Shown here one piece after another: positions 16,554 to 52,366 of a stretch of DNA of 64,000 nt (positions within the stretch are counted from its first letter, which is position 1; every line of letters starts with the position of its first letter). The DNA is from Trinickia soli (GTDB taxonomy: Bacteria > Pseudomonadota > Gammaproteobacteria > Burkholderiales > Burkholderiaceae), in the NCBI RefSeq assembly GCF_002879855.1, contig NZ_PNYB01000006.1, positions 1 to 64,000 of the forward strand, written 5' to 3'. The notes beneath the pieces were generated by a model, which saw only the letters and a program-made list of their open reading frames with translations, searched no databases and was not told the DNA's origin. The translations under genes and the position numbers were made by a program.

Positions 16554-18665
16554 TCACGCCCCGCCTTCGCGCTCGAAGATCGAAGCCAGCCGCTTCAGCG
16601 CGCGCCAGGCAAAGCTCTGCCGCGCGCCGCCGATCGTCGCTGTCCCGACGATTTCGCGCGGCCATGCCTGTTCTGCCGGGCAATCGCCAATCCGCACGCG
16701 ATACGTGGCGGTCAGCGGCACAAGTTGATGCGTATTCGGCTGCAGCTGCACGGGCAGCGGCCCCCCGTAGACGCTCGCGAGCGAAGGCGCATCGAGCGTG
16801 GCGACATTGACGCGATCGACAGCCGTCACACGGCAATGCAGCGCACCGAGTTCGGGCAACGACGCGACGAAGCTCACGCGATCGCCAGGCTCGACGCGCG
16901 CGGCGTCGTCTTCGCCGACAAAGGCTTCGCCTTTCACGCCGATCGGCCCGACGACATCGAACAGATGCGCGCCGCGCGGCAGCCACGTGCCGGGGGCAAG
17001 CGCTTCGTCGGTCTGCACGACGCCGTCGAACGGCGCGCGCAGGGTCAACTGCGCGACTTGCGCCGTGAGGCCGCTCACCGTTTCGCGCGCCGCCTCCCAA
17101 CGTCGACGCAGCGCCACGCCCTGATCGAGCAAGCGATTGTCGAACGATTGTTGTTCGACCTGCCAGCGCAATAACGCTTCCTCGGCTTCGCCGGCTTGCA
17201 GCCGATGGGTGAGATCGGGCGACGCCAGCACAGCCAGCACGTCCCCCGCATGCACGCGTTGACCGTCGCGCGCGATCGGCGCGGCACTCGTCATGTAGGC
17301 GGCCTCCGGCACATAGAGCCCTTGCGCGCGCAGCGGACCGAGCACGGCCGGTGCGCTGACACCGCCGTGCCACGGCAGCACGAACAATCCGAGCAAAAGC
17401 GCGCCGACGAACGCCGAGCGCCGCGTCTCGCGACGCCAATGCAAATCCCCGCGACGATGCCAGCATGCAGCGACTTCGCGCACGATCGGCCGCGCGATGA
17501 ACCATCCGAACTCGACGCAGAACAGCATCAACCCCAGCGCTTTGAAGAACGTGTGATAGACGACGAGCGCGATCGAGAAGAACACGACGAGCCGATAGAG
17601 CCATGTCGCGAAAGAAAACCCGATCAGAAAGCGCCGACGACCGGGCGCGCAAGGTTCGGGCTGCGGATCGTCGAAGCCGAACAACCGCTCGCGCACCCAC
17701 CACCGGCCGATCGCGAACGCGCGGTCGTGCAGGTTCGGCATGTCGAGCCAATCCGACAGCAGGAAGTAGCCGTCAAAGCGCATGAAGGGGCTCGCGTTGA
17801 TCGTCAGCGTGCCGATCCAGGTCGTCGTCGCCAATAGGAACGCACCTGCGCGCATCGGCCCGTCGGGCAGCACGCTCCAGGCGAGCGTCGCAAACGCGGC
17901 CAGCGCCAGTTCGGTCAACATGCCGGCCGCCCCGATCCGCAGGCGCTCGGCGCGACCCGGCACTTTCCACGCTTCGGTCGTATCGGTGTAAAGCACCGGC
18001 ACCATGACGAGCAGTGCGACGCCCATCGTCGGCACGCGACAGCCGTAACGATACGCCGTGAACGCATGGCCGAATTCGTGCAGCACCTTTGCACAGCCGA
18101 GCGCCACGCCGATCGCGATGAGCCCACGCAGATCGGCATAGCCGTGGAATGTATGGATGAATTCGTCCCACCGGCGCGAAACGAGCACGAGGCCCGTCAG
18201 CGCCACGAGCGCAACGACGACCCACGACGCAGGCCGATAGGCAATCTCGGCATACCGCGCAAACCGGTTCAGGAACGGCATCGGCCGCCACAGCGGCACG
18301 CGGATCATCAGGTAGTGCTTGAGCAACCACATCGCGTGCGAGAGCTTGCCCGCCGCAGCCGCGCTCGCCAGCCGCCCCGTATCGGCCGGGCTGGCCGCCA
18401 CGAGCAGGTGCTGGTGGCGCAGCATCTTTATCAGCACCTCGAAGTCGTCGATCGACAGATGCAGCGTCGTCTCGGCGTTGACCGCGGCGACGATCGCTTC
18501 AGGGTCGTCGAGCGGCCAACGCGAGAGCATTTCGAATGCAGGCCAGCCGATCTGGAAGAAACGATTGGCCGCCGGGTCGTGCAGCATCCAGCTCGGCGCA
18601 CCATCCGGGGTCGCGGCGCCGGGCATCAGACTCAGTTCTTGGCGAAGGGGCGGAAGGCGGGACAT
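16554..18665 (-). CDS. PqqD-like / M50 zinc-metalloprotease / HlyD fusion
   Basis: 703 residues. About 25-90: a PqqD-like winged-helix region (WMLHDPAANRFFQIGWPAFE, then AIVAAVNAETT). About 115-430: a polytopic membrane M50 (site-2-protease-like) region with the zinc motif HEFGH (196-200) and a second motif NASPFMRFDGYF (Asp298). About 435-640: a HlyD/biotinyl-lipoyl adaptor region (RAPFDGVV). These fusions are commonly labelled putative peptide zinc metalloproteases. It is the last of four export genes after the giant repeat protein, 40 bp after the GAF-HlyD gene. Processing or guiding the giant substrate is an inference from context. Confidence 0.85.
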   Translation of the reverse strand: MSRLPPLRQELSLMPGAATPDGAPSWMLHDPAANRFFQIGWPAFEMLSRWPLDDPEAIVAAVNAETTLHLSIDDFEVLIKMLRHQHLLVAASPADTGRLASAAAAGKLSHAMWLLKHYLMIRVPLWRPMPFLNRFARYAEIAYRPASWVVVALVALTGLVLVSRRWDEFIHTFHGYADLRGLIAIGVALGCAKVLHEFGHAFTAYRYGCRVPTMGVALLVMVPVLYTDTTEAWKVPGRAERLRIGAAGMLTELALAAFATLAWSVLPDGPMRAGAFLLATTTWIGTLTINASPFMRFDGYFLLSDWLDMPNLHDRAFAIGRWWVRERLFGFDDPQPEPCAPGRRRFLIGFSFATWLYRLVVFFSIALVVYHTFFKALGLMLFCVEFGWFIARPIVREVAACWHRRGDLHWRRETRRSAFVGALLLGLFVLPWHGGVSAPAVLGPLRAQGLYVPEAAYMTSAAPIARDGQRVHAGDVLAVLASPDLTHRLQAGEAEEALLRWQVEQQSFDNRLLDQGVALRRRWEAARETVSGLTAQVAQLTLRAPFDGVVQTDEALAPGTWLPRGAHLFDVVGPIGVKGEAFVGEDDAARVEPGDRVSFVASLPELGALHCRVTAVDRVNVATLDAPSLASVYGGPLPVQLQPNTHQLVPLTATYRVRIGDCPAEQAWPREIVGTATIGGARQSFAWRALKRLASIFEREGGA

Positions 18666-18705
18666 CGAAGCGCTACGTCAGGTAAGGGCCAGGGCGGCGC
18701 ATCGT

Positions 18706-20187
18706 CTACCACCCGAGCCACTGCCGCGCCGTGGCCAGCGGCCGGCGCAGCAGATAGTACGCGAGCGGCGTCCAGTGGCCATGGATGCGCGCGGTGCCCA
18801 TCACGCCGAGCGGCGGCTTGACGGCGCCGACGAACGTTGCTTTCACGCGGTAGGCCACGACCCCTTCGGGGGTAGGCTCGGCGCGATAAGCGACCGTATC
18901 GATGCGCGCGTCGTAGGAGGCCAGCGGCGAGCTCTTCGGATAAAGCGTGACCGATGCGCCCGGGACGACATCGACATTGTCGGCAACCGGCACGTAGGCC
19001 GTCAGCTCGACATGCGCCGGGTCGGCCAGCAACATCACCTTCTCGCCGATCGAGACGGCCTTGCCATTCCAATCGTTCGGATCGGAGAAGACGGCGACGC
19101 CCGCGCGCGGCGCATTCACGCGCACGCGCGCGAGCTCCCGCGCGGTGTAGTCGAGCTCGACCGCGCTTTCGTCGAGCTTACCCTTGCGCAGCGCCATATC
19201 AAGCCGGTCTTTGTCGTCGGTGACGGCGAGCTGCGCGGTTTGCCGGTACTCTTCCTGCGCCGTCGCATAGTTCTTGTTGGCCAGCGCATAGCGTGAAGCA
19301 AGCGCCGTCGAGTCGAGCGCGAACAGCGGCGTACCCGCCTCGACGCGTTGATTCGGCTGCGCAAAGAGTCGATCGATGACGCCGTCGAGCGGCGCGCGCA
19401 CGACAAACGGATCTTTCGGCGTCACTTCCGCCGGCGCAAGCACCGTCAACGGCACCGGGACGACAAGCCCAATCGCCAGCGCCGCCAGCACGCGGCGGCG
19501 ATGCCTGCCCGCGCGGAGCGTGAGCTTGGCCCGCTCGATCCACGACACCCGCGGGGCAAATGCGGCCAACGCGTGCGACCAGACGCGCGCGAGTTCGGCG
19601 AGCAGCGCTTCGTCGACATGCGTCCACGGTTCCTCGCGCGCGAAGACGATGCCGCCGAAGGAACGGCCGGCGCGATCGATCAGCGGCGTCCAAAGCGCAT
19701 GCGTAGGCCACCACGCGGCCCAATCGGCGGCCAGCGCCGCGGGCAGACTGTCGGCGGTGAACGGATAGGGCCACGCGAGCGCCGCCGGGTCGACAGGCTG
19801 GGCAGGCGCACCGGCTTCGCCGCTGAATTCGCCATTGGGCACGGCTTGCGCGTGAAACTGCGTTCCCGCCTGCGGGGATGTGCCGGCCGCCGCCCCTTGT
19901 GTCGAGGCTTGCGCCCAACGACGTTCAAGCACGCGGCACACTTCGCCAAGCCATTGCACGTACGGCGTGCCCGGATCGCTCTGCGGCAACCCCGACACGG
20001 CGGCGACGGCTCCGGGCACGGGCGCCGGCGCACGCCACCACGCGGCCTGACGATAGGGCGTCAGCGCGAGCGTCTCGTTGACGATCACAAAGCCGAGCGT
20101 CTCCTCGCTCGCGGCTTCCCGCGCACGCGCCGACAATTGCCATAGCAGTGCGAGCGCGTTCGCCTCGATTCGCAGCGGAGCGTTCAT
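18706..20187 (-). CDS. HlyD-family adaptor with GAF-like cytosolic N-terminus
   Basis: 493 residues. Residues 1-215 look like a cytosolic GAF-type fold (TLGFVIVNETLALTPYRQAAWW; LWTPLIDRAGRSFGGIVFAR; VDEALLAELARVWSHALAAF) broken by a Gln/Pro-rich insert at about 92-133. One transmembrane helix (about 233-252) leads into a HlyD adaptor with the lipoyl half-motif FVVRAPLDGVIDRLF, a coiled coil and a beta-barrel. Ordinary HlyD proteins have only a short N-terminal tail, so the cytosolic domain is unusual. It starts 9 bp after the preceding adaptor gene. Confidence 0.83.
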   Translation of the reverse strand: MNAPLRIEANALALLWQLSARAREAASEETLGFVIVNETLALTPYRQAAWWRAPAPVPGAVAAVSGLPQSDPGTPYVQWLGEVCRVLERRWAQASTQGAAAGTSPQAGTQFHAQAVPNGEFSGEAGAPAQPVDPAALAWPYPFTADSLPAALAADWAAWWPTHALWTPLIDRAGRSFGGIVFAREEPWTHVDEALLAELARVWSHALAAFAPRVSWIERAKLTLRAGRHRRRVLAALAIGLVVPVPLTVLAPAEVTPKDPFVVRAPLDGVIDRLFAQPNQRVEAGTPLFALDSTALASRYALANKNYATAQEEYRQTAQLAVTDDKDRLDMALRKGKLDESAVELDYTARELARVRVNAPRAGVAVFSDPNDWNGKAVSIGEKVMLLADPAHVELTAYVPVADNVDVVPGASVTLYPKSSPLASYDARIDTVAYRAEPTPEGVVAYRVKATFVGAVKPPLGVMGTARIHGHWTPLAYYLLRRPLATARQWLGW

Positions 20188-20196
20188 GGCGCGACT

Positions 20197-21045
20197 CTAG
20201 CGGCCGGCGTCGGCGAAGTGCGCCCAGCCGCTCATGCCCGGCAGCAGCTCGGGGGCGTGGCTCGACAGTGCCGCCGTCACGTCGACGGTCTGCGTGACGG
20301 GATCGACGCGCGCGCCGATGCGTGCAACGGTAGCCGGATACGTCTTGCCGACTTCATCGACGGTGACCGTCAGCACATGGCCCGGCTTGAGCCAGGCGAG
20401 CCACTTGGACGGCACGATCATCTTCAGTTCGAGCCGGCTCGTATCGACGATCGTGAGCAGCGTCTTGCCCGGTTCGGCGAACTGCTGCGCCGACGCGCTG
20501 CGTTTGACCACGCGCCCGTCGAACGGCGCGGCGATGCCGCACTTGCGCACCGTGGCCTGCATATAAGCGACTTCGGCGGCGCTCGCTTTGGCCTTCGCGT
20601 CGGCCTGCTGCACCTCGATTTCGCCGATCGAATGAAGCTGCGACAGTCGATCGTCGACGCGTTTCAATTGCACAGCGGCATCGGCCTCGGCTTGGGCTTT
20701 ATGCAACTGCGCCGCGTAGAGCGAGCAATCGAGCGCGACGAGCGTCTGCCCTGCGCGGAAAGCATCGCCGTCGCGAAACGGCATGGCGGAAATTTTCGCG
20801 CTGATTTCGCTCGATAAGTCGACTTGATCGCGCGCGACGAGCTGGATGCGGATGCGACCCTGGTCATCAGCACGTCCGGCCGAGGCACCGGCCGGCGCGA
20901 CCGTCATATTGACCCCCGTGGGCGCGGGGGTCGCCGCATGCAGCCCCGAAGTGGACGTACCGGCTTGCAACCCGGCGGCCCAAGCAGTATGAGCCGCCAC
21001 CATCAAGGCTGCGCTGCGCAGCCCTGCCCTACACCATCGATTCAT
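20197..21045 (-). CDS. Periplasmic adaptor (RND/HlyD-type membrane fusion protein)
   Basis: 282 residues with a Sec signal peptide (cut after TAWA at about residue 23), so it is exported and lacks an inner-membrane helix. Lipoyl half-motifs (DAFRAGQTLVALDCSLYAAQ and CGIAAPFDGRVVKRSASAQQ) flank a short helical hairpin, followed by a beta-barrel and a membrane-proximal domain. It would bridge the inner-membrane components to the TolC protein. The start overlaps the TolC-gene stop (ATGA), so translation is coupled. Confidence 0.85.
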   Translation of the reverse strand: MNRWCRAGLRSAALMVAAHTAWAAGLQAGTSTSGLHAATPAPTGVNMTVAPAGASAGRADDQGRIRIQLVARDQVDLSSEISAKISAMPFRDGDAFRAGQTLVALDCSLYAAQLHKAQAEADAAVQLKRVDDRLSQLHSIGEIEVQQADAKAKASAAEVAYMQATVRKCGIAAPFDGRVVKRSASAQQFAEPGKTLLTIVDTSRLELKMIVPSKWLAWLKPGHVLTVTVDEVGKTYPATVARIGARVDPVTQTVDVTAALSSHAPELLPGMSGWAHFADAGR

Positions 21046-22673
21046 TGCGTTTTAACTCCGTCCGCGTGGCCGAACTGCGCCCATCGCGTTTGCTCCTTGT
21101 CGATCGATTGCTCGATCGAGGTCAAATCGCCCTTGCCGGCGTCAACCGACACCGGATCGAGACCGAGCGTCGCCAGCATTTGGCCGTAGGCGCTTTCGAG
21201 TTCGCCGTAGCTTTGATAGAGACGCAGTTCCGACATCATCGCAGAAGTCGCGGCGCGGATCTCTTCGAGCTTGCCTTGGGCGTTTGCCACGGTGGCGTTG
21301 TGCGTGTGCTGCAGAATCTGCCCGTCGACATCGTTGATCTGCTTGTAGAGATCAAACTGGCGCTGCTTCGCGCTCAATTCCGCACGCGCGACGTGAACCT
21401 GCGTCAGCACAGCCATCGACAGCGCCAGTTGCTGCGCGTGTGCGACATCGCGCTGGGCGTTCGCCATGCCGCGAATGTTCTTGGCGTTGAGCAGGTTCAA
21501 CAGGTTCCAGCTCACGTTGATGCCGGCCGCGCGCCACGCGTGATACGCGAGGAAGCTGTTGCTGTCGTAATGCGTGCCCAGTTGGAATTCGATGCCGGGC
21601 AACAGCCTGGCGATCGCCTTGTGCGTTTCGTTGATGCTGATGCGTTCGTTGTAGCTCGCTTCCACGAGTTCGGGACGGCGCTCGAGCGCCGTCTCTTCCA
21701 TGCGATCCATCGGCATATCGAAGCTCGGCACCGAGAACCCTTCGGGCGGCGCGAGCGTGATGTCGGTGCCGGGCGCGATATTCATCAGCGAGGCAAGGCG
21801 CGGCTTGGCCTCGTCGAGTTGATCGCGCACGGCTTCGAGCTGACGCATGATGTCGAGCAGCGCGTGCTGGTAGCCGAGCGTGTCGAGCGGCGAGCGCAAG
21901 CCTTCCGATTGCGAGCGGCGCGAATCCTCGAGTGCCTGCCGCGCCTGCGCGAGCAGCGGCGCGATGCGGTTTTCAAGCCGCTGCGCACCCACTGCTTCCC
22001 AATAGGCTTCGCGCACCTGCTGCATCATCAGCTGCACGACCTTGCGTCGGCGCTGTTCGACGACGAGCACGCGATCGGCCTGCTCCTTGGCTTCGAAGTA
22101 ACTCACGCCGAAATCGAGCACGTTCCACGAGAACGTGAGATCGGCCGTGCGATCGTTCTGATCGGTCGAATACGAAGGCTCCAACGACACCTGATGGGTC
22201 TGCAGCGAGATCGATTCCGACGCGAGCGGATGATCACGATGCGTGTAGCCGGCCGCCGCGGTCAGGCGCGGCAGCATGTCGAAGTTGGCGACATCGAGTT
22301 GTTTCTGCGCGAGCGCCTCTTCCATCATCTTCAAGCGATGGTCGAGGTTGTAGCGAATGGCGCGCGCCATCGCTTCTTCCAGCGTCACCGGCCCGGCAAG
22401 CGGCGGTTGATCCGCAAACATCGCCGTGCGTTCGGCATGGGCATTCTGCACGCGCTCGGCGTCGGTGAACGGCGTCGGATGAACCGCGCAGCCCGACAGC
22501 CACAATGCGGCCACGGAGATCGCGATCAGCGAGGGTCGCAAAGCCCGCCTCGCGCGGGTCTCGCGCGTGGCTTCCGAGCCGGGCGCAAGGGTGGGCCCAT
22601 ACGCGGGCGAAGGCATCACTGCGGCAACTGACGGTTGTGGTCTCATTGGTCTTGATCGATAACGGGAATTCAT
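21042..22673 (-). CDS. TolC-family outer-membrane factor
   Basis: 543 residues. A long N-terminal extension ends in a hydrophobic segment and lipobox-like LSGC (Cys62), suggesting a lipid-anchored outer-membrane channel. The body has the two repeated alpha-helical/beta-barrel halves of outer-membrane efflux proteins (SFSWNVLDFGVSYFEAKEQA and INVSWNLLNLLNAKNIRG). The ATG at 22673 overlaps the stop of the giant gene (ATGA). A start nearer the hydrophobic segment would also encode a valid signal peptide. Confidence 0.88.
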   Translation of the reverse strand: MNSRYRSRPMRPQPSVAAVMPSPAYGPTLAPGSEATRETRARRALRPSLIAISVAALWLSGCAVHPTPFTDAERVQNAHAERTAMFADQPPLAGPVTLEEAMARAIRYNLDHRLKMMEEALAQKQLDVANFDMLPRLTAAAGYTHRDHPLASESISLQTHQVSLEPSYSTDQNDRTADLTFSWNVLDFGVSYFEAKEQADRVLVVEQRRRKVVQLMMQQVREAYWEAVGAQRLENRIAPLLAQARQALEDSRRSQSEGLRSPLDTLGYQHALLDIMRQLEAVRDQLDEAKPRLASLMNIAPGTDITLAPPEGFSVPSFDMPMDRMEETALERRPELVEASYNERISINETHKAIARLLPGIEFQLGTHYDSNSFLAYHAWRAAGINVSWNLLNLLNAKNIRGMANAQRDVAHAQQLALSMAVLTQVHVARAELSAKQRQFDLYKQINDVDGQILQHTHNATVANAQGKLEEIRAATSAMMSELRLYQSYGELESAYGQMLATLGLDPVSVDAGKGDLTSIEQSIDKEQTRWAQFGHADGVKTQ

Positions 22674-25600
22674 ACGCGACGCGCTGCGCCGCCCGGACGC
22701 GACACGTGCAACGCAGCACGTGCCTGCGCAAACTGCTGATCGAGCGAAGGTTTGCCGACAGGCACCGCGGCGCGCGCGATCGACGGTTCGCCCGATGTGC
22801 GCGATGCATGCCCCTGCGGCTTCGGATGGGCCACGCCGTGCGAACCCGCGTGCGGCCCGGCGTGCTTGTCGTGCGGTGCGAGCACGATCTCGCGGCGCGT
22901 CTCATGGCCGGACGCATCGCGTGTTTGCACGACGATGCGAACATCCTCGACGCCCGGCGGCACCTTGCCGCGCAACACGCCGTTCGCCGCGTCGTAGTGA
23001 ATCCAACCGGGCAGCGTGCGTCCGTTGGCCAGCATGACCGTCACGTCGGAGCCACCATGCATCGCTTCCGATGGCGGCAACAGCGTCGCCACGCTGATCG
23101 AGAACGGATCGCTCGGTGCCAGCGTGAACGACACATCGGGCAACGACTCGGGCATCGGGACCGGCGTGATCGCGATCGCGGCATTGAGCGCAGTCGGGTC
23201 GAAGTGGCTCACCGTGGCGCGATCGAGCGAGAACGCGTTCTGTGGCGCGCTCGGATCGGAGAACGTCATCGTCGGCACGACAGGTACTGAGCCGATCGGC
23301 GTTGGCGCATTGAACTCTTGCAGCACGTCGGGCGGCGAGGTGTTGTCCGAACCGACAAACGGCACGGGCGGCGTCGGTGCCGGCGGTTCTACGATGGGCG
23401 GCGGCGGCGGCAGAATCGGCGGGAACGCCGGCCCCTTCACGATGGTGATCGTGTTCGACGCCGCGGCGCTCGTCTTCGCACCGTCGCTGACCGTGAATGT
23501 CACCGTGCGGCCATCGCCCGCCCGCATCGACGAATCGGAATAGGTCACCGATTGCAGCGCGGTACGCCATTGCGCGAGCGTTGCCGTTGCACCGGCCGAG
23601 GTCATCGTCAGTACGCCGGTCGCGGCGTTGTAGCTCGCAGCGATGTTGCCCGTCGTCGCGGTGCTGCCCACGAACGCAAGCGTATCGTGCGCCGGATCGA
23701 AGCCGCCGCTGATCGTCACCTGCGCCGAGGCGAGCGTCGTGTTGTCGAGATCGCTCAGCGTCACTTGCGGCGCCACGGCCACCGGCGTCGAGCCGTTTCC
23801 GCGCGCCGTGAAGGTGGCAGTGCCGCCCACCGTCAGCAGCGGCGTCTGATCGGTATCGGTCACCGTGACGTCGCGCGTTTGCACGGCGCTCGCAGTGCCG
23901 TTGCCGTCCGTTACCGTGAAGCTGACCGTGCGCGTTGCGTGATCGGGCGTGACCGCCGTATCCGTATAGCTGATCGAGGCGAGCGCCGCCTGCCATTGCG
24001 CGAGCGTGGCCGTGCCGCCGGCCGACGTCAGCGTGAGCACGCCGGTGTTCGCGTTGTAGCTCGCGGCGATGTTGCCCATCGTCGCGCCGTCGTTGTTGAA
24101 CGCGAGCACATCTTCGCCTGCATGGAAGCCGCCCGTGATCGCCACCGTGGCCGACGACAGCGTCGTGCTGCTCGCATCGGTCAGCGTCAGATGAGGTGAC
24201 ACGACGATCGGCGTCGGGGGCGCGTTGTCGGCAGCCGTGAACGACGCTGCGCCGGAATCCGTGCCGATGTGCGGCCGATCGAGGACAGTGACCGTGGCCG
24301 TCGCCGCGGCGCTCGTCTTCGCGCCGTCGTTCGTTGCGAACGCAATCGTGCGATCGCCGAAGTGCGCACCGTTGCTCGCAAACGTCACGGCGGACAGCGC
24401 GCTTGCCCACTGCGCGTCGGTGGCCGTGCTGCCGGCCGAAGTCAGCGTCAGCACGCCCGTCGCCGCATTGTACGAAGCGGCGATGTTGCCGAACGCCGTT
24501 GCGTTGCCGTTCGTGAAAGCGAGGACGTCTTCGCCGCTATGGAAATTGCCCGTGATCGACACCGTTGCTAGAGCCTGGGTCGGATTGTCGAGGTCGCTCA
24601 CGCTGACATGCGGATTGACGACCGCGCCCGTCGCGCCGGCCACATACGAGGCGGCCCCGCCCGTCGTCGTCACGATCGGCGTTTGATCGGTATCGGTCAC
24701 TGTAACCGCGCGTGTTGCCGTGTTGCTCGTCACGGCGCCCGTATCGACAGCCGCAAAGCTGATCGTGCGCGTTGCATTGTTCGGCTTGACGGCCGTGTCG
24801 GTGTAAGTCACCGCATCGAGCGCCGCCTGCCATTGCGCAAGGCTCGCCGATGCGCCCGACGACGTCAGCGTCAATACGCCTGTCGCCGCGTTGTAGGACG
24901 CCGCGATGTTGCCGTAAGTCGTCGAACTTGTATTCGTGAACGCCAGTACGTCTTCACCGCTGTGGAAGTTGCCCGTGATCGCAACGGTGGCCGAGGCCAG
25001 CGTCGGCGAGCTGCCGTCCGTCACTGTCAGCCCCGAGTCAATGGCAACGGGTGTCGAGGCCGTATTGTCACCCGCCACGAATGAAGCCGAACCGGAGTCA
25101 GTCGTGATCGTCGGGGGGCCGAGCACGCTTACCGTGTCGATCGCGGCCGTGCTGATTTTGGTGCCGTCGCTCGTCGTGAACGAGATCGTGCGGTTGCCCG
25201 GCGTCGCGCTCGAACCGGCCGAGAACATCACGGCGGACAGAGCGGCGCTCCATTGCGCATCGGTGGCGACGGCACCCACCGACGTGAGCGTCAGCACGCC
25301 CGTCGCTGCGTTGTACGAGCCGACGATGTTGCCGAACGTCGTCGGGTTCGTGTTGACGAAGCTCAGCGTATCGCCGCTGTGGAAGCCGCCCGTTACCGAC
25401 ACCGTTCCCGACGATTGCGTCGTGTTGTCGAGGTCGGTGACGGAGATGCCGCCGTCGATCGTCGCGGCCGAGGTGCCGCCCACGTAGTTCGTCGTGCCCC
25501 CCGTCGTCGTCACGATCGGCGTTTGGTCGGTGTCGGCCACCGTAACCGCGCGTGTTGCCGTGTTGCTCGTCACGGCGCCCGTATCGACAGCCGCAAAGCT

Positions 25601-28600
25601 GATCGTGCGCGTTGCATTGTTCGGCTTGACGGCCGTGTCGGTGTAAGTCACCGCATCGAGCGCCGCCTGCCATTGCGCAAGGCTCGCCGATGCGCCCGAC
25701 GACGTCAGCGTCAATACGCCTGTCGCCGCGTTGTAGGACGCCGCGATGTTGCCGTAAGTCGTCGAACTTGTATTCGTGAACGCCAGTACGTCTTCGCCGC
25801 TGTGGAAGTTGCCCGTGATCGCAACGGTGGCCGAGGCCAGCGTCGGCGAGCTGCCGTCCGTCACTGTCAGCCCCGAGTCAATGGCAACGGGTGTCGAGGC
25901 CGTATTGTCACCCGCCACGAATGAAGCCGAACCGGAGTCAGTCGTGATCGTCGGGGGGCCGAGCACGCTTACCGTGTCGGTTGCGGCCGTGCTGGTTTTG
26001 GTGCCGTCGCTCGTCGTGAACGAGATCGTGCGATTGCCCGGCGTCGCGCTCGAACCGGCCGAGAACGTCACGGCCGACAGAGCGGCGCTCCATTGCGCAT
26101 CGGTGGCGACGGCACCCACCGACGTGAGCGTCAGCACGCCCGTCGCTGCGTTGTACGAGCCGACGATGTTGCCGAACGTCGTCGGGTTCGTGTTGACGAA
26201 GCTCAGCGTATCGCCGCTGTGGAAGCCGCCCGTTACCGACACCGTTCCCGACGATTGCGTCGTGTTGTCCAGATCACTGACCGTGATTCCGCCGTCGATC
26301 GTCGTAGCCGAGGTGCCGCCCACGTAGTTCGTCGTACCGCCCGTCGTCGTCACGATCGGCGTTTGATCCGTGTCGGTGATCGTCACGTTGCGCGTCGCCG
26401 TGGCGCTCGTATTGCTGGCGCCGTCGACCGCGGTGAAGCTGATCGTGCGCGTCGCGTTGTTCGGCGTCACCGCCGTGTCGGTGTACGTGATCGACCGCAG
26501 CGCGCTTTGCCACTGCGCAAGCGTCGCCGTCGCGCCGGTCGAGGTCAGCGTCAACACGCCCGTCGCCGCGTTGTACGACGCCGCGATGTTGCCCATCGTC
26601 GCGCCATCGTTCGTGAACGCCAGCACGTCTTCGCCGCTGTGGAAGCCCCCCGTGATCGCCACCGTCGTCGAACCGAGCGTCGTCGCGCTGCCGTCCGTCA
26701 CCGTCAAGCCCGAATCGATCGTGACCGGCGTCGATGCCGTGTTGTCCCCCGCCACGAACGAAGCCGAACCGGAGTCAGTCGTGACCGTCGGCGGCGCCGT
26801 CATGTTGACCGTATCGGTGCCGGCGGTGCTCGTCTTCGTACCATCGCTCGTCGCGAACGAAATCGTGCGACTGCCGTACGTCGTGCTCGTGCTCGAAAAC
26901 GTCACGGATTTCAGCGCGTCGGCCCACTGCGCATCGGACGCCGTCGAGCCCGCCGAGGTCAGCGTCAACACGCCGGTCGCCGCGTTGTACGACGCCGAGA
27001 TGTTGCCCATCGTCGCGCCATCGCTCGTGAAGCTCAGCGTATCGCCGCTGTGGAAGCCACCCGAAACCGACACCGTTCCCGACGATTGCGTCGTGTTATC
27101 CAGATCACTGACCGTGATTCCACCGTCGATCGTCGTAGCCGAGGTGCCGCCGGCGTAGTTCGTCGTACCGCCCGTCGTCGTCACGATCGGCGTTTGATCC
27201 GTGTCTGTGATCGTCACGTTGCGCGTCGCCGTGGCGCTCGTATTGCTGACGCCGTCGACCGCCGTGAAGCTGATCGTGCGCGTCGCGTTGTTCGGCGTCA
27301 CCGCCGTGTCGGTGTACGTGATCGACCGCAGCGCGCTTTGCCACTGCGCAAGCGTCGCCGTCGCGCCGGTCGAGGTCAGCGTCAACACGCCCGTCGCCGC
27401 GTTGTACGACGCCGCGATGTTGCCCATCGTCGCGCCATCGTTCGTGAACGCCAGCACGTCTTCGCCGCTGTGGAAGCCCCCCGTGATCGCCACCGTCGTC
27501 GAACCGAGCGTCGTCGCGCTGCCGTCCGTCACCGTCAAGCCCGAATCGATCGTGACCGGCGTCGATGCCGTGTTGTCCCCCGCCACGAACGAAGCCGAAC
27601 CGGAGTCAGTCGTGATCGTCGGCGGCGCCGTCATGTTGACCGTATCGGTGCCGGCGGTGCTCGTCTTCGTACCATCGCTCGTCGCGAACGAAATCGTGCG
27701 ACTGCCGTACGTCGTGCTCGTGCTCGAAAACGTCACGGATTTCAGCGCGTCGGCCCACTGCGCATCGGACGCCGTCGAGCCCGCCGAGGTCAGCGTCAAC
27801 ACGCCGGTCGCCGCGTTGTACGACGCCGAGATGTTGCCCATCGTCGCGCCATCGTTCGTGAAGCTCAGCGTATCGCCGCTGTGGAAGCCGCCCGTTACCG
27901 ACACCGTTCCCGACGATTGCGTCGTGTTGTCCAGATCGCTCACCGAGATGCCGGTGTCGATCGTCACCGCCGATGTCGCGCCGACGTAGTTTGTCGTGCC
28001 GCCCGTCGTGGTGACGATCGGCGTTTGGTCGGTGTCCGTTACCGTCACCGTCCGGGTGGCGGCGCTACTGGTATTGCTCGCGCTGTCGACCACGGTGAAA
28101 CTCACGGTACGCGTCGCGCTGTTCGGCGTCACCGCCGTGTCGGTGTACGTGACCGACCGCAGCGCGCTTTGCCATTGCGCGAGCGTCGCCGTCGCGCCGG
28201 TCGAGGTCAGCTTCAACACGCCCGTCGCCGCGTTGTACGACGCCGCGATGTTGCCCATCGTCGCGCCATCGTTCGTGAACGCCACCACATCCTGACCGCT
28301 CGCGAAGCCGCCCGTGATCGCGACCGTCGCGGACGCGAGCGTCGTGGCGGCGGTGTCGGTCACCGTCAAGCCGGAATCGATTGCCACCGGCGTCGATGCC
28401 GTGTTGTCGCCGGCCACGAACGCGGCCGAACCCGAATCGGTCGTCACTTGCACCGGGTTCACGACATTGATCGTATCGGTCGCCGCAGTGCTCGTTTTCG
28501 TGCCGTCGCTTGTCGCGAACGAAATCGTCCGCGTGCCGAACGTCGTGCTCGTGCTCGAGAACGTCACGGCTTTCAGCGCGTCGGCCCACTGCGCATCGGA

Positions 28601-30688
28601 CGCCGTCGCACCCGCCGAGGTCAGCGTCAACACGCCTGTCGCCGCGTTGTACGAGGCCGAGACGTTGCCCATCGTCGCGCCATCGTTCGTGAAGCTCAGC
28701 GTATCGCCGCTATGGAAGCCGCCCGAAACCGACACCGTTCCCGACGATTGTGTCGTATTGTCGAGATCGCTGACCGTGATGCCGCCGTCGATGGTGATGG
28801 CGGACGCCCCACCGCTGTAGCTCGTTGTGCCCCCCGTCGTCGTCACAATCGGCGTTTGATCGGTTCCCGTGACGGTCACGCTTTTCGTGACCGCATTGCT
28901 GGACGATTGGTAGGCGTCGCTCGTCAACTGGAAGCTGACCGTACGCGTGCTAGTGGTCGGCGTTACAGCCGTATCGGTGTAGGTCACCGCGCGAAACGCG
29001 TTCTGCCATTGGGCGATCGTGGCGGTGCCGCTCGCCGACGTAAGCGTCATCACCCCGGTGGCCGCGTTGTAAGAGCCAGCGATGTCGCCGTATTGCGCAG
29101 CGCTGGTATTGGTGAATCCCAGTACGTCCTGCCCGCTCGCGAAGTTGCCGGTGATGCTGACCGATCCCTGCTTCGCAGTCGTTGCGTCGCCGTCGGTCAA
29201 CGTGACGCCGCTGTCGACCGCGACCGGCGTGGACGCGACGTTATCCCCTTCGACGAAAGCCGTGCTGCCGCCGGAAGCCGTCAAGGCCGGTGGTGAAGAA
29301 AGGTCGACATACGTAAAGTTGTTGAGCGTCGGCGTGAGAAACGCCGAATCCGTCTCGCGCAATCTCAGGCTCGTGATGCCTGCGAAAGCAGCGTTGCCCG
29401 ATACATTGACGTGAAACACAGAGCTGCCGCCATTCGTCGACGTATCAAGCGTGAGCGTGCCTACCACGCTTCCTAAGGAATTCAGCGCCTCGACCGCGAC
29501 TACCGACGGCGCATTGATGTCGACATCGAAGCTCTGGACGGCCATCTTGTCGCCGTTTTGCAGCGACATGGTCATCGATGTCAGCGAGGTGCCTTGCACG
29601 TTGCCGAACAACACCCCATCGGTCGGCCCTGTAGTGAGCGGCGGAGGGCCGAACTGGTTGACGGTCGTGCTGTCGACGGCGAATTCCGCAGCCTGGTCCA
29701 ACGTGTAGTGGATGCCGTCCAGGTCGAACGATGTGACGCCCGCCGCACCGCCGGCCGTGTCATAGCCGATCTGTCCATCGTATGTTTCATCGGTGACGGC
29801 CAATAGTCCGGCATATTGCTGCTCGGCAGCCTGCGAAAAAATCACCGACGTATGCACGGCGCCGGCGTCGTACTCGAGCGCCCAGTCGCCGCCAAGCGCG
29901 GCCGCCCCGGTGGCATCGGTCGATGCCCCCACGTTCAATCCCGAGATCGAGGCAATCTGCTGCACGAGCGCCTTGCCGTCGGCGTTTTGGGCGACATCGC
30001 AGCCGTAAATCAAGAAGTCGCCGCCCGGCCGCATCGCCGCGCCGATCTGCGCGAGTTCCGCGCTATAGGCCGCGATATCGCCCTGGTTGAGCCAGGTGCT
30101 GCCGATCTGCACGTTGCCGTCGGAACCGTGCGAAACGAGATGGATCGCGCTGACACCCGAGTGCTGCTGCAGATACTGCTCGATTTGCGCGAGGCCATCC
30201 TTCGTCGAATCGAGGATCACATATTGCGTGCCCTGCGGCAGGCCCGCGACGAGTGTCTGGTAGCCGGTGACGTTCGAATTGATGAAGACGACCTGTTTTT
30301 CCGCCGACTGGGCCACCGCATCGGTGAAACCGTGCACCGCCCGCATCGTCGACGACGCAGCCGTGGCGTCGCCCGCAGCTGGCGTCATATACCCATGACG
30401 AGGCGTCGCGTCCGACAGGTTCGACGTGCGCGCTGCCGTCGCGCTCTGCGCCTGGGCAGCCGGGGATGCCCCCTCTTGCGCAAGGCTCGCCGGATGGCCA
30501 TCGACATTCGCGTGATGCTGCGCGACCACCGCCGCCGCACCGATGGACGCAGCCGATGCGTCATAGACGATGCGCGGCTCGAGCGCAACGAGCAGCGGCG
30601 CGGGAAGCGCTGCGCGTTCCCTGCGTGCGTGCGTGGCAGGCGAGCGCATGGCGCCGAGAAGTTTGGAGAGGCTGGCGGCGAGTTTCAT
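22670..30688 (-). CDS. Giant LEPR/DUF4347 tandem-repeat surface protein
   Basis: 2672 residues. Residues 1-45 are a basic leader with VALEPRIVYDA (LEPR at 36-39), the LEPR-XLL-type N-terminus of large repetitive proteins. About 131-297 is a DUF4347 domain with HLVSHGSDG (His187) and LIYGCDVA (Cys230). After a linker domain come 14 modules of about 140 residues, each containing YNAATGV or YNANTGV, in two alternating types. A Pro-rich segment (near FPPILPPPPPIVEPPAPT) and an Ig/putative-binding C-terminus with a basic tail follow. No classical RTX nonapeptides were seen. It is probably a secreted or surface adhesin exported by the four genes downstream. Confidence 0.9.
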   Translation of the reverse strand: MKLAASLSKLLGAMRSPATHARRERAALPAPLLVALEPRIVYDASAASIGAAAVVAQHHANVDGHPASLAQEGASPAAQAQSATAARTSNLSDATPRHGYMTPAAGDATAASSTMRAVHGFTDAVAQSAEKQVVFINSNVTGYQTLVAGLPQGTQYVILDSTKDGLAQIEQYLQQHSGVSAIHLVSHGSDGNVQIGSTWLNQGDIAAYSAELAQIGAAMRPGGDFLIYGCDVAQNADGKALVQQIASISGLNVGASTDATGAAALGGDWALEYDAGAVHTSVIFSQAAEQQYAGLLAVTDETYDGQIGYDTAGGAAGVTSFDLDGIHYTLDQAAEFAVDSTTVNQFGPPPLTTGPTDGVLFGNVQGTSLTSMTMSLQNGDKMAVQSFDVDINAPSVVAVEALNSLGSVVGTLTLDTSTNGGSSVFHVNVSGNAAFAGITSLRLRETDSAFLTPTLNNFTYVDLSSPPALTASGGSTAFVEGDNVASTPVAVDSGVTLTDGDATTAKQGSVSITGNFASGQDVLGFTNTSAAQYGDIAGSYNAATGVMTLTSASGTATIAQWQNAFRAVTYTDTAVTPTTSTRTVSFQLTSDAYQSSSNAVTKSVTVTGTDQTPIVTTTGGTTSYSGGASAITIDGGITVSDLDNTTQSSGTVSVSGGFHSGDTLSFTNDGATMGNVSASYNAATGVLTLTSAGATASDAQWADALKAVTFSSTSTTFGTRTISFATSDGTKTSTAATDTINVVNPVQVTTDSGSAAFVAGDNTASTPVAIDSGLTVTDTAATTLASATVAITGGFASGQDVVAFTNDGATMGNIAASYNAATGVLKLTSTGATATLAQWQSALRSVTYTDTAVTPNSATRTVSFTVVDSASNTSSAATRTVTVTDTDQTPIVTTTGGTTNYVGATSAVTIDTGISVSDLDNTTQSSGTVSVTGGFHSGDTLSFTNDGATMGNISASYNAATGVLTLTSAGSTASDAQWADALKSVTFSSTSTTYGSRTISFATSDGTKTSTAGTDTVNMTAPPTITTDSGSASFVAGDNTASTPVTIDSGLTVTDGSATTLGSTTVAITGGFHSGEDVLAFTNDGATMGNIAASYNAATGVLTLTSTGATATLAQWQSALRSITYTDTAVTPNNATRTISFTAVDGVSNTSATATRNVTITDTDQTPIVTTTGGTTNYAGGTSATTIDGGITVSDLDNTTQSSGTVSVSGGFHSGDTLSFTSDGATMGNISASYNAATGVLTLTSAGSTASDAQWADALKSVTFSSTSTTYGSRTISFATSDGTKTSTAGTDTVNMTAPPTVTTDSGSASFVAGDNTASTPVTIDSGLTVTDGSATTLGSTTVAITGGFHSGEDVLAFTNDGATMGNIAASYNAATGVLTLTSTGATATLAQWQSALRSITYTDTAVTPNNATRTISFTAVDGASNTSATATRNVTITDTDQTPIVTTTGGTTNYVGGTSATTIDGGITVSDLDNTTQSSGTVSVTGGFHSGDTLSFVNTNPTTFGNIVGSYNAATGVLTLTSVGAVATDAQWSAALSAVTFSAGSSATPGNRTISFTTSDGTKTSTAATDTVSVLGPPTITTDSGSASFVAGDNTASTPVAIDSGLTVTDGSSPTLASATVAITGNFHSGEDVLAFTNTSSTTYGNIAASYNAATGVLTLTSSGASASLAQWQAALDAVTYTDTAVKPNNATRTISFAAVDTGAVTSNTATRAVTVADTDQTPIVTTTGGTTNYVGGTSAATIDGGISVTDLDNTTQSSGTVSVTGGFHSGDTLSFVNTNPTTFGNIVGSYNAATGVLTLTSVGAVATDAQWSAALSAVMFSAGSSATPGNRTISFTTSDGTKISTAAIDTVSVLGPPTITTDSGSASFVAGDNTASTPVAIDSGLTVTDGSSPTLASATVAITGNFHSGEDVLAFTNTSSTTYGNIAASYNAATGVLTLTSSGASASLAQWQAALDAVTYTDTAVKPNNATRTISFAAVDTGAVTSNTATRAVTVTDTDQTPIVTTTGGAASYVAGATGAVVNPHVSVSDLDNPTQALATVSITGNFHSGEDVLAFTNGNATAFGNIAASYNAATGVLTLTSAGSTATDAQWASALSAVTFASNGAHFGDRTIAFATNDGAKTSAAATATVTVLDRPHIGTDSGAASFTAADNAPPTPIVVSPHLTLTDASSTTLSSATVAITGGFHAGEDVLAFNNDGATMGNIAASYNANTGVLTLTSAGGTATLAQWQAALASISYTDTAVTPDHATRTVSFTVTDGNGTASAVQTRDVTVTDTDQTPLLTVGGTATFTARGNGSTPVAVAPQVTLSDLDNTTLASAQVTISGGFDPAHDTLAFVGSTATTGNIAASYNAATGVLTMTSAGATATLAQWRTALQSVTYSDSSMRAGDGRTVTFTVSDGAKTSAAASNTITIVKGPAFPPILPPPPPIVEPPAPTPPVPFVGSDNTSPPDVLQEFNAPTPIGSVPVVPTMTFSDPSAPQNAFSLDRATVSHFDPTALNAAIAITPVPMPESLPDVSFTLAPSDPFSISVATLLPPSEAMHGGSDVTVMLANGRTLPGWIHYDAANGVLRGKVPPGVEDVRIVVQTRDASGHETRREIVLAPHDKHAGPHAGSHGVAHPKPQGHASRTSGEPSIARAAVPVGKPSLDQQFAQARAALHVSRPGGAARRV
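24661..26340 (-). repeat. 840-bp tandem duplication within the giant gene
   Basis: Bases 24661-25500 and 25501-26340 align at an exact 840-bp offset. Several 60-bp rows are identical (for example 24721-24900 against 25561-25740) and only scattered single-base differences occur elsewhere. Each copy encodes one pair of repeat modules (280 residues). The near identity points to recent duplication or gene conversion. Confidence 0.9.
26341..28002 (-). repeat. 831-bp tandem duplication within the giant gene
   Basis: Bases 26341-27171 and 27172-28002 repeat at an 831-bp offset (277 residues, one module pair). The rows covering the variable part of the modules are nearly identical. Together with the neighbouring 840-bp pair this gives a block of about 3.3 kb of highly similar DNA, where copy number could change by recombination. 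Confidence 0.85.
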
Positions 30689-30738: not shown

Positions 30739-31356
30739 TTACGAGCGCGACGGGAAAATCCCTTGCAGCGCAATACAGAAGTTGACACCCAGATACGGAT
30801 TACGCGTCTCAACGGGAATGTTGTTCCCGACAAGGCTGTTGGTAATCGTCGGCGCCGTGGTCTGCAGCGTCACACTGAAAGGCTTGAGCGTCGTGGCGTG
30901 GTCGGTTGCGGTGCTGTACAGACCAAGGGGACGCCCGCCGGAACTGAGCGGTCCCAGCACGGCGGTGGGGCCGGGCACGCCGCCGTCGCTCGTCGTGTCT
31001 GTCGATGTCGTTGCGGGCAGCGCGATGTTGCCCGTCGCAGTGCCAGGCCCTTGCGTCGCCACGTGCGTATGCTGCGGCATGTTCGCCGTCGTCAGCGTGA
31101 CGCTCTCCGTGCCGCCTTGCTCGCCGATCTCGATGGTCGAAAGCCCCGCTCCCTGCCCGATGCCTACAGGCGTGCGGCTCTGCATGTTCGGCAGTTGGTA
31201 GTTCGACGTGCCGTTACCGCCGTAGAACGTGCCAAGCAGCGCGAACAAAGCCTGGTTCTGCGAGATCGGCATCAGTTGGCCCTGACACTGCGCCCAGCCG
31301 GTGGGAGCAAAGTTGAACCCCATCATGCGGATTTCGCCCAAAAACGGATCACTCAT
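30739..31356 (-). CDS. Phage tail-collar (microcystin-dependent type) protein
   Basis: 205 residues from the ATG at 31356, which has GGAGG six bases upstream (a GTG one codon earlier is too close to it). The N-terminal tail-collar domain is diagnostic: FLGEIRMMGFNFAPTGWAQC, then GQLMPISQNQALFALLGTFY and NYQLPNMQSRTPVGIGQG. The C-terminal part contains HTH in MPQHTHVATQ and ends NPYLGVNFCIALQGIFPSRS, as in MdpB-like proteins. No other phage gene is nearby. Such proteins also occur as stand-alone genes beside large surface proteins; their role is unclear. Confidence 0.88.
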   Translation of the reverse strand: MSDPFLGEIRMMGFNFAPTGWAQCQGQLMPISQNQALFALLGTFYGGNGTSNYQLPNMQSRTPVGIGQGAGLSTIEIGEQGGTESVTLTTANMPQHTHVATQGPGTATGNIALPATTSTDTTSDGGVPGPTAVLGPLSSGGRPLGLYSTATDHATTLKPFSVTLQTTAPTITNSLVGNNIPVETRNPYLGVNFCIALQGIFPSRS

Positions 31357-31388
31357 CACACGCCTCCTGTCAAAAAAGAGAAAAACGC

Positions 31389-36923: not shown

Positions 36924-39900
36924 ATGCAACGCTTCCTCAATGCGCTGTTCAGCAAACGGACGATGACCGTCGTCGGGGTCATCGTCTTCGCCGCTCTGGT
37001 GTTCAGCCTCTCGATCTGGCTCGAGCTTCCACTCCTATGGCCCGCGCTGGCGCTCGCCGCATTGCTCGCGCTGCTTTTCGCCGGCTGGCTGTGGCGGCGC
37101 ATCGCTGCGCGGCGGGCCGGCAGCAAGCTCGGCGAGGTGCTCGAGCAACAGGCCGAGACGGGCAAGGCGCCCCAGGCTGCCGGCGCTCAGCCGGCCGATC
37201 TCGACATGCTGCGCAAGCGGCTGACCGAAGCCGTCCGCACGATCAAGACCTCCAAGATCGGCCAGGTCTCGGGCGCCTCGGCGCTCTACGAACTGCCCTG
37301 GTACATCGTCATCGGCAACCCTGCAGCCGGCAAAAGCAGCGCGGTGCTCAATTCGGGGCTGCAGTTTCCGTTCGCCGAAAAGACCGACGCCGTGGTGCAT
37401 GGCATCGGCGGCACGCGCAACTGCGATTGGTTCTTCACGACCGAAGGCATCCTGCTCGATACGGCCGGTCGCTATTCGGTGCAGGAAGAGGACCGCACCG
37501 AATGGCTCGGCTTCCTGAATCTGCTCAAGCGGCACCGCCCGAAGGCGCCGATCAACGGCATCATCGTGACAGCCAGCATCGCCGAGCTGACGAGCAGCCG
37601 CCCCGATGCCACGATCAACCTCGCCCGCAGCCTGCGCCAGCGCGTACAGGAACTGACCGAGAAGCTCGAAGTCTTCGCGCCTGTCTATGTGATGTTCACG
37701 AAGGCCGACCTCATCACGGGCTTCGCCGAGTTCTTCAGCGGCGGCGAGCGTCACGAATACGAGCGCGTCTGGGGCGCCACCCTGCCGTACGAGCCCGACG
37801 AGAAACGCGACATCGTCACGTTGTTCGACGAGCGTTTCGAAGAACTCTACGAAGGGCTCAAGGAAATCAGCGTCGCGCAGATGTCGATCAATCGCGGCGC
37901 CATGCTGTCGCCGGGGCAACTGAGTTTTCCGCTCGAATTCCTCGCGATCAAGCCCGCGCTGCGGGTCTTCCTCGCCACGCTGTTCGAAAACAACCCGTTC
38001 CAATACAAACCGATCCTGCGCGGCTTCTATTTCACGAGCGCGCTGCAACAGGGCGAGACGAGCAGCGCCGCTGCGCAGCGCATCGGCCATCGCTTCGGGC
38101 TGGCCGTCGACAACCTGCCCAAACCGCAAGCCGCCGCCTCGAAAAACGGGTTCTTCCTGCGCGATTTGTTCTCCAAGGTCATCTTTGCCGACCGCCAGAC
38201 GGTCCGACAATTCGCCAGCCCGGCCAAAACGCGCCTGCGCTACGGCACGTTCTTCGCGTTCGTGGCCGCCCTGGCGCTGGCGCTGGGCGGCTGGACGTGG
38301 TCGACGCTCGGCAACCAGCAACTCGCCGCGAACGTCCAGGCCGATCTCGACAACATCGTGCGTCTGCAGCAAAACCGCAACGATCTGCAGTCGCGGCTGC
38401 AGGCAATGGACATTCTCGAAGATCGCATCGCGCAACTCGAGCAGTTCCGTCGCGATCGCCCGCTCTCGGTCTCGCTGGGTCTTTATCAAGGCGACCGGAT
38501 GGAGCAGCGCTTATTGGCCGAGTATTACCGTGGCGTCAAGCAGTTGATGCTCGACCCCGTCTCGCAGAATCTCGCCTCGTTCCTCAGAGACGTCGATGCG
38601 CATCCGGAGCAATTGGCGCCGTTGACGCGCCCGCCCGAGTCCGGCGCGATCCCCGTGTCGACGCGTGCGAACGCTATGGGCCAAGGGGCCGGCGGCGCTC
38701 AAGGCGGACTGTATAGCGATGCGTCGCCCACCAATGTCGAAGATGCCTATAACGCCCTCAAGACGTACCTGATGCTGTCGGACAAGCGGCATGTCGAGGC
38801 GGCGCATCTGACGGACCAGCTCGCACGCTTCTGGCGCGGCTGGCTCGAAACGAATCGCGGCAACATGTCGCGCGACGAGATGATCAAGAGCGCCGAGCGG
38901 ATGATCACGTTCTACCTCTCGCGCGTGTCGGACGACGACTGGCCGATGATCGATGCGAATCTTTCGCTGATCGATCAGACGCGCGAAAACCTGCGCCGGG
39001 TCGTGCGCGGGATGCCGGCTCGTCAGCGCGTCTATGAGGAGATCAAAGCGCGCGCCTCGACGCGTTTCGCGCCGATGACCGTGGCGCGCATCGTCGGCGA
39101 AAACAATACGAACCTCGTCGGCGGCAGCTACGCGATCCCCGGCACCTTCACGCGCGAAGCGTGGTTCGACTATGTCAAACCCGCGATTCGCGACGCCGCC
39201 ACGAAGGAACTCCAAGCGAAGGATTGGGTGCTCAACACGGCGTCGCAGGACGATCTCACGCTCGAAGGCAGCCCCGAGCAGATCCAAAAGGCGCTCGTCG
39301 GCATGTACAAGACCGAATACGCGCAGCATTGGCAGCGCTTCATGCAAGGGATCGCCGTGCGCGATTTCGGCAGCTTCGGTCAGGCCGTCGACGCCATGAA
39401 CCGCCTGGGCGACCCGCAAGATTCGCCGATCCGCAAGATCCTCGAAACGGCCTACGACCAAACGGCGTGGGATAACCCGGCGCTTGCATCCACTACGTTG
39501 CAGAAGGCTCAAAACGGTGTAACGGGCTGGTTCAAGCGGCTGTTCTCGTCGAAGACGCAAGCGGCGCAGAACGCCGGAGTCGATCTCGATGTCAATCTGA
39601 GCGGCGGCTCGGCCACGGCCGGCCCGGTCGGCATCGCGTTCAGCGGGCTTGCACGCATCGTCGCCAAGCAGGACAACGCGTCGCTGCTGAACGGCTACAT
39701 GGACACGCTTTCGAAGGTGCGTACGCGTTTCAACGTATTGAAGAATCAAGGCGATCCGGGTCCCGGCGCACGCGAGCTGATACAGCAAACGCTCGACGGC
39801 AGCGGGTCGGAACTTGCCGATTCGCTCAAATTCGTCGACGAACAGATGTTGACGGGGCTGACCGACGATCAACGCAAGTCGCTGCGTCCGCTGCTCGTGC

Positions 39901-41815: not shown

Positions 41816-41816
41816 C

Positions 41817-42815: not shown

Positions 42816-42879
42816 AGCGACAGGGCCGGGGCAACAGGGCCGCACCTCGGCGCCCTGCCCTGCCCCCTCTGCTCACGGC

Positions 42880-43995: not shown

Positions 43996-43996
43996 A

Positions 43997-46675: not shown

Positions 46676-46733
46676 AGTGAGTCGCTTCTCGTATGGAATG
46701 AGAGTTCGGGGCTGCTCGAAGGCAAATCCGGAT

Positions 46734-49639: not shown

Positions 49640-49672
49640 CGATATCCCCGAGCGCGCCCGCTCTTATGTCGA

Positions 49673-50191: not shown

Positions 50192-50234
50192 CGTGAAACG
50201 TATACCGGCAAATGGTGCGGAACGGAGAACGAAC

Positions 50235-50268
50235 GCGCCGCCCGCTTCATGACCGAAGCGAGCGGCGC
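50235..50268 (-). terminator. Strong hairpin just after hcp (attenuator)
   Basis: GCGCCGC-C-CGCTTC and GAAGCG-A-GCGGCGC form a 14-position stem with one mismatch and a 6-nt loop, beginning 13 bp past the hcp stop. On the transcribed strand a mildly T-rich GTTCGTTCTCC follows. It probably ends or protects a large share of hcp transcripts before tssE. Confidence 0.65.
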
Positions 50269-50281
50269 ATAGGCGAAAAGG

Positions 50282-50785: not shown

Positions 50786-50860
50786 GACTTCACGACTCCC
50801 AGGTAGCGGTTATAAGCGGCGCGGAGCTGACGCCCGTGCCGCGCTCGGAATGACAGCTTG

Positions 50861-52348: not shown

Positions 52349-52366
52349 CCTCACACCCCGCTTACG

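Follow-up and report, generated by a model that had tools for sequence, protein, structure and literature searches.

A conserved giant-protein gene cluster of Trinickia soli encodes a putative exporter without a linked ABC transporter

The stretch of Trinickia soli DNA that was analysed as a whole (64 kb; hereafter the window) carries on its minus strand, at positions 16554-30688, five genes that follow each other in the order giant repeat protein, TolC-type channel, secreted adaptor, GAF-type HlyD adaptor and M50-HlyD fusion (Table 1). This layout had been proposed in a preliminary description made from the letters alone, and it was confirmed by the open reading frames (ORFs) and their Pfam matches. 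The coordinates and the sequence likewise bear out the two 4-bp ATGA overlaps (giant/channel and channel/adaptor) and the subsequent gap of 9 bp between the adaptor and GAF-HlyD genes that it had reported; the last gap, between the GAF-HlyD and M50-HlyD genes, is 40 bp. Three of the cluster proteins match HlyD_3 in Pfam. The GAF label stands for part of the family but not for the window's own protein, as Pfam detected a GAF domain in 11 of the 56 members of this HlyD adaptor family and none in the adaptor of the window. The topology of this GAF-type adaptor, as read from its sequence, is a cytosolic N-terminus followed by one membrane anchor. Counts of promoter-like sites (1, versus 2.1 in shuffled sequences) and of terminator-like sites (12, versus 12.0) gave no signal.

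Table 1. Positions of the genes, domains and motifs of the cluster in the window.
Feature	Position	Strand	Size or residues	Basis
RRE-like (weakly supported) N-terminal domain + M50 + HlyD fusion	16554..18665	-	703 aa	Peptidase_M50 1.5e-6; HlyD_3
HExxH motif of the M50 domain	18066..18080	-	residues 196-200	alignment of M50 proteins
GAF-type HlyD adaptor	18706..20187	-	493 aa	HlyD_3 6.7e-15
Secreted periplasmic adaptor	20197..21045	-	282 aa	RND_mfp TIGR01730 118.9 bits (cut-off 94.9); hydrophobic N-terminus in sequence
TolC-type outer-membrane channel	21042..22673	-	543 aa	Pfam OEP 9e-27
Giant repeat protein, presumed substrate	22670..30688	-	2672 aa	ORF, translation, DUF4347
C-terminal tag GKPSLDQQF of the giant	22730..22756	-	residues 2645-2653	pattern count
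DUF4347 domain of the giant	29801..30292	-	residues 133-296	Pfam 1.3e-56
N-terminal tag LEPRIVYDA of the giant	30557..30583	-	residues 36-44	60 giants aligned on tag
Tail-collar protein (PF07484), optional sixth gene	30739..31359	-	206 aa	PF07484 1.6e-24

The giant of the window shows a repeat period of about 140 residues in self-comparison, no RTX family in Pfam, and a short conserved tag near each end. The N-terminal tag, LE(P/Q/S)Rxx(F/Y)D(A/G), is common to the giants with a readable start, with exceptions. Sixty such giants were aligned on the form LE(P/Q/S)Rxx(F/Y)(D/E)(A/G/S), and they are not independent since several come from near-identical strains (e.g., Pectobacterium and Phytobacter pairs). 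The strict tag occurs within the first 120 residues of 60 of the 115 giant-like ORFs, many of the others being truncated by the ends of their stretches, versus none of 1,241 other ORFs. Because the patterns of both tags were written from the same proteins as were counted, the invariant letters of the N-terminal tag are partly so by construction, which leaves the zero among the other ORFs unaffected. Pfam placed a DUF4347 domain after the tag in 40 of the 45 giant N-termini scanned. One more giant (L182) is also tagged, its true start lying downstream of the start first placed. No N-terminal tag was seen in the giant of L120, the frame of which opens near the contig start, or in the L124 giant that adjoins the GAF-HlyD gene and is preceded by a masked stretch; the second, upstream giant of the latter genome does have the tag (L191). 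In L051 a masked (N/X) stretch splits the giant into two frames, and its apparent length is therefore provisional. As for the other end, the tag G(K/R)xx(L/F)xxQ(L/F) was found in 55 of 84 giant-like ORFs (the strict form being absent from 29), as compared with 5 of 1,179 other ORFs and a mean of 0.1 per 84 shuffled C-termini, and a looser core of it in 70 of 84, versus 92 of 1,179 and 8.35 per 84, respectively.

NCBIfam returned no match to the N-terminus of the window giant at E≤5. LEPR-XLL is the name of the version of the tag that goes with the sister modules described below. The same name was given to a protein of about 8,000 residues in the relevant passage of one paper (PMC10868602). 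BTH_II1339, a DUF4347 protein of B. thailandensis that shares at least this domain with the window giant, appears in passages of two other papers: one lists it with proteins whose levels rise in stationary phase (PMC12322963), the other with those raised during infection of a host (PMC6206043).

The tail-collar gene lies 50 bp upstream of the window giant, and of the 55 assessable LEPR-tagged giants, 19 have a same-strand collar gene no more than 1.5 kb upstream; 15 of these 19 belong to the window's own clade. In some Chromobacterium-, Paludibacterium- and Phytobacter-type loci a collar gene is present elsewhere near the cluster, and in a second cluster of Pectobacterium aroidearum (L197, 11834-19901) the M50 fusion is followed by a collar gene and a tagged giant. 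Beyond the collar gene of the window, upstream of the giant, type VI secretion genes (IcmF, ClpV-like AAA, TssF and VipB sheath) occupy positions 36924-52354.

The order of the gene set is beyond chance, because neither the order nor the strand of the four export genes varies among the 26 loci of the family, window included. These loci come from 150 genomes of the same family, the family and phylum names being deduced from named records. The fusion gave a match at E≤0.001 in 31 of the 150; it is full-length in 23 of them, at 26 places in total, and the rest are weak partial matches. They make up a close set and a second set, the latter being 37-44% identical in the fusion and endowed with larger giants. 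A scan of named genomes yielded 80 further loci, the best 80 of 594 relatives, from Burkholderiaceae, Pectobacterium, Pseudomonas, Azospirillum, Magnetococcales, and Desulfobacterota-type and Nitrospira records; the two sets overlap by three loci, the contig of L097 being that of G075, L099 that of G063 and L100 that of G013, and the 23 family and 33 named located genomes share no coordinates. Among these best 80 of 594, the GAF-HlyD gene was present in 76, the adaptor in 60, the channel in 58 and all four export genes in 56, while the M50 and GAF-HlyD proteins (GAF being assigned here by homology only) are encoded side by side, on the same strand and within 1.2 kb, in 75. When at least 5 kb of upstream sequence was available (65 of these loci), all four export genes were found in 53; the other 12 (L129, L130, L145, L151, L154, L159, L164, L165, L168, L171, L172 and L174) are without at least one. 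In L151 and L130 (seen in L194) the giant sits between the adaptor and GAF-HlyD genes, so that the first genes are displaced to near the end of the stretch or past it. Tagged giants accompany the export set in most loci with a readable giant start, even where the gene order has changed; no giant-like ORF was found in L198, L200 and L201, three stretches with the fusion or its GAF-HlyD partner. On the scale of the phylum, the fusion was detected at E≤1e-150 in 77 of 398 genomes, 58 of 338 good-quality genomes and 36 of 213 genera, a count that scores two candidates per genome, includes the window's own genome and contains at least two recurring named genomes (G168 and G185).

No ABC ATPase was found in the 64-kb window, either by tblastn, with eight ORFs of this genome's ABC loci as queries (one or more of them seems to be read from the wrong strand), or by an HMM of the ABC nucleotide-binding domain that was built on 24 ORFs containing ABC motifs. 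In the named loci (best 80 of 594), this HMM exceeded 60 bits in 12 of the 80, at varied distance, strand and size, and never between the cluster genes. The nearest match (L171) is an ATPase-only gene on the same strand that starts 77 bp downstream of the fusion, and two family loci have an ATPase-type match downstream (L050, 0.9 kb; L049, 3.2 kb). The five cluster proteins and the ten neighbours scanned are also devoid of RND and MacB domains. The preliminary description thus holds as regards the absence of an ABC ATPase from the window, and the giant-plus-exporter set without a linked ABC transporter proved to be widely conserved (in all 26 family loci, with the fusion recurring across the phylum at the frequency given above).

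That description had also named, as the observation that would speak against it, an ABC transporter gene in fixed association elsewhere in the genome, and for the type I classes no such association was found. HlyB-class proteins (E≤1e-130, a cut-off set by the genome's own MsbA, which scores 5.5e-97 in the HlyB model; the matches of 437-461 bits that pass it are probably LssB-like) occur in 16 of 24 family genomes (23 with the fusion and one control, G088) and in 25 of 37 named genomes, the genomes of L097, L099 and L100 being excluded from the latter. The HlyB-negative genomes number 20, of which G038 (70% complete) was left out; 8 of the 19 tested hold a PrtD-class match (E≤1e-100). Hence, to a depth of the first 30, 22 and 43 candidates per genome, 11 of the 60 fusion-bearing genomes have neither class at these cut-offs, including the one-contig genome G072, and all 11 hold the cluster.

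These figures bear on the possibility that an ABC transporter encoded elsewhere and shared, whether HlyB/LssB, PrtD or a generic one similar to MsbA or MacB, performs the inner-membrane step. The frequencies of HlyB and PrtD classes just given are compatible with it, two HlyB-type genes are found on other contigs of the window's genome, and the seven of the 11 negative genomes that were scanned for all ABC exporters each keep 5-8 ABC_membrane matches. We nevertheless consider it improbable, since the 11 genomes show neither class at the cut-offs, no ABC gene recurs beside the cluster, and the control G088, which has no fusion and lies outside the 60, possesses HlyB genes all the same. As generic ABC exporters are kept and the window's genome has HlyB-type genes of its own, what is excluded at the cut-offs is a universal dedicated type I ABC transporter; the exclusion does not extend to a shared one.

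Turning to the M50-HlyD fusion, residues H196, E197, H200 and D298 are invariant in 82 of 82 aligned M50 proteins, comprising 75 of the window type and seven of a sister type described below. The active-site residues of this site-2 type protease are therefore intact, and the protein is predicted to be active. Its M50 region scored 153.6 bits with the daptide-type M50 model NF041824, below the cut-off of 300. PqqD is a peptide-binding fold. The resemblance of the N-terminus of the fusion to PqqD, from which its RRE-like reading comes, is weak: for the window type, hhalign gave 29.4% at best and 7.8% in a second run, the 29.4% being obtained with the first segment, as against 1.5-10.4% with segments that start at residues 16-46 and at most 0.7% further on; the second run gave 19.7% for all sequences and 32.7% for the sister type, over only 22 columns; and Pfam found no PqqD in 13 fusion members at E≤10. 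The N-terminal domains of both M50 types match each other (hhalign, 97.5%). Beyond M50 and HlyD, Pfam revealed no transporter signature in the fusion. The best scores of the adaptors are with RND_mfp and MacA-like adaptors.

It could be argued from the proximity of the M50 part to a daptide (peptide) protease model, from the RND/MacA resemblance of the adaptors and from the few stretches without a giant, that the export genes serve another substrate, a peptide or a small molecule, the giant being merely co-transcribed. This strikes us as very unlikely, given that tagged giants go with the set in most readable loci, even after a change in gene order, and that the cluster contains no pump gene.

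A two-step route, in which ordinary Sec would deliver the giant to the periplasm and the adaptors and channel would cross the outer membrane only, fits the tripartite type of these proteins and the Sec-like N-terminus that the secreted adaptor itself possesses. The giants, however, are poor candidates for such a signal: the N-terminal hydrophobicity has a median of 1.47 in giants versus 2.11 in adaptors, with overlapping ranges, and four giants have only 4-5 residues ahead of the tag (script-placed starts, one of them a doubtful GTG). Lower hydrophobicity and short pre-tag stretches together argue against an ordinary Sec signal. In addition, this route would leave the cytosolic domains of the two anchored adaptors without an obvious cytosolic task, and we rate its chances as low.

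Loci that resemble the present one were described in 2015 (Kamneva, Poudel, Ward 2015, PMC4452313). According to the sections of that paper covered here, they lack an ABC transporter and encode a secondary SecA_DEAD protein together with proteins of the M50, GAF-HlyD and HlyD kinds; it was proposed that the role of the ATPase may fall to the SecA-like protein and that of the pore to the M50 protein, the broader role of the module was called completely unknown, and no substrate or tag is named. We found a single SecA_DEAD protein in the window's own genome, and no SecA-like ORF in the window or in 142 fetched loci, except in the sister-type locus L062. A single strong SecA is present in 54 of the 60 fusion-bearing genomes, and a second strong SecA_DEAD in the other six (seven genes), the weak second matches of three Pectobacterium genomes (31-32 bits) being left out of this count. 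All seven secondary secA genes adjoin a divergent type of M50 gene, and none lies in a window-type cluster. In the M50 tree, the seven sister-type sequences group together, separate from the 75 of the window type (support 1.0 and 0.78, midpoint root). The giants beside the sister modules have LEPR-XLL-like starts in four of five readable cases (LEPRVLMSG in G122, VEPRLLLSA in G172, LEQRLLLSG in G185 and LEPRILLSA in G163); none was found in contig C38 of G184, and G180 and contig C69 of G184 end too early for the giant start to be read. LEPR-tagged giants thus accompany each of the two branches, every branch having its own version of the tag.

In G122 (L062, L249), the SecA-bearing sister module and its LEPR-XLL-like giant, of more than 3,600 residues, adjoin the type VI genes IcmF and DotU. 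Macromonas and Desulforhopalus genomes (L273, L272, L246; L275, L271, L245) also show LEPR-XLL-like starts beside sister modules, in frames that would reach about 10,000 residues each if continuous across the fetched stretches.

The window type is best read as the SecA-less sister branch of the 2015 module, probably powered by the housekeeping SecA. As all genomes examined possess the latter, finding it there is no evidence in itself. The fusion could alternatively be a passive or proton-driven pore, with the giant being pulled out by folding outside. Such a pore would suit a conserved fusion in a cluster devoid of ATPase, and the sister-type M50 protein was indeed proposed as a pore in the sections of PMC4452313 covered here; yet the sister branch carries a SecA-like ATPase and the fusion has no transporter signature besides M50 and HlyD, and we regard this explanation as unlikely.

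We propose, with a probability of roughly 45%, that the cluster is a putative type-I-like exporter which works without an ABC protein and is dedicated to a single giant surface protein, with the housekeeping SecA as the likeliest source of the push. Its established base is as follows. First, the gene set is conserved. Second, it contains no ATPase gene. Third, the giants have conserved end tags. Fourth, the active-site residues of the M50 domain are intact. The giant would be marked for export by its N-terminal LEPR tag, possibly together with the tag at its other end. The cytosolic RRE-like N-terminus of the M50-HlyD fusion might bind the giant and read its tag, and the GAF-type N-terminus of the second anchored adaptor may also bind it. 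The M50 domain could be the entry or gate in the inner membrane, or could trim the tag, while the three HlyD-type adaptors and the channel would form the conduit to the outside. By analogy with the sister branch, which encodes its own SecA-like ATPase at this place, the housekeeping SecA would be the likeliest motor, to which the outward folding of the repeats could add a pull. The interpretation given in the preliminary description, a dedicated exporter powered or gated differently from type I systems, is supported in part, namely as regards a conserved set unlinked to ABC genes; it took no account of the collar gene, of the tags at both ends of the giants or of the SecA_DEAD/M50/HlyD module of 2015 (PMC4452313).

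More tentatively still, LEPR-type tags may define a general ABC-free export route for the giants of Gram-negative bacteria, from about 2,000 to perhaps 10,000 residues, that would be neither type I, type II nor type V. In such a route, an M50-HlyD gate would read the tag, one branch using its own SecA-like motor and the other borrowing the housekeeping SecA or working motor-free.

Similarly to type I secretion (HlyB/HlyD/TolC), the cluster combines HlyD-type adaptors, a TolC-type channel and a giant repeat substrate. Unlike it, the cluster has no linked ABC gene, three adaptors, two of which are fused to M50 or GAF-type domains, and an N-terminal tag on its giant. Type I substrates carry RTX repeats or an uncleaved C-terminal secretion signal; Pfam found no RTX family in the window's giant, and the giant does have a conserved C-terminal tag. 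LapBCE is a type I secretion system, and retained adhesins of the LapA type have an N-terminal retention module that works with LapD and LapG. Tripartite RND/MacAB pumps have the best-scoring relatives of the adaptors, whereas no RND or MacB protein is among the five proteins. The M50 region resembles the daptide protease (NF041824), from which the present protein differs in its fusion to HlyD and its pairing with a giant. With the 2015 module, as presented in the sections of PMC4452313 covered here, the cluster has in common the M50 protein, GAF-HlyD homologues, an extra HlyD protein and the lack of an ABC transporter, and modules of that type also adjoin giants with LEPR-type tags in the genomes studied here; the window type differs in that it has no secondary SecA and possesses a channel gene of its own, that its M50 proteins fall into a separate clade and that its tag reads LEPRxx(F/Y)D(A/G).

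The Pectobacterium MRP adhesin, which belongs to a type I cluster with MRP and LapG, was considered as a LEPR giant, an identity that its description in the passages of PMC6963963 consulted does not support. In the literature searched, which most subscription journals lie outside, we found no paper joining peptidase M50, HlyD, TolC and secretion, and no printed link between the giant tag and an ABC-free module; the passages of the review PMC8277102 on M50, SecA and GAF contain no ABC-free module. Judged from its sequences, the window cluster thus appears to be a variant of the published SecA_DEAD/M50/HlyD module, of which the link to tagged giant substrates would be new.

The cluster, whose layout is found again in many Proteobacteria, raises the mechanical problem of how a giant adhesin could be moved out of the cell with no ABC motor. 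The link between a short N-terminal tag and both branches of the ABC-free machinery gives a presumed substrate class to a module whose wider biological role is called completely unknown in the sections of PMC4452313 covered here. If the export reading is true, the route would be a common one, the fusion being present in 77 of the 398 genomes of the phylum.
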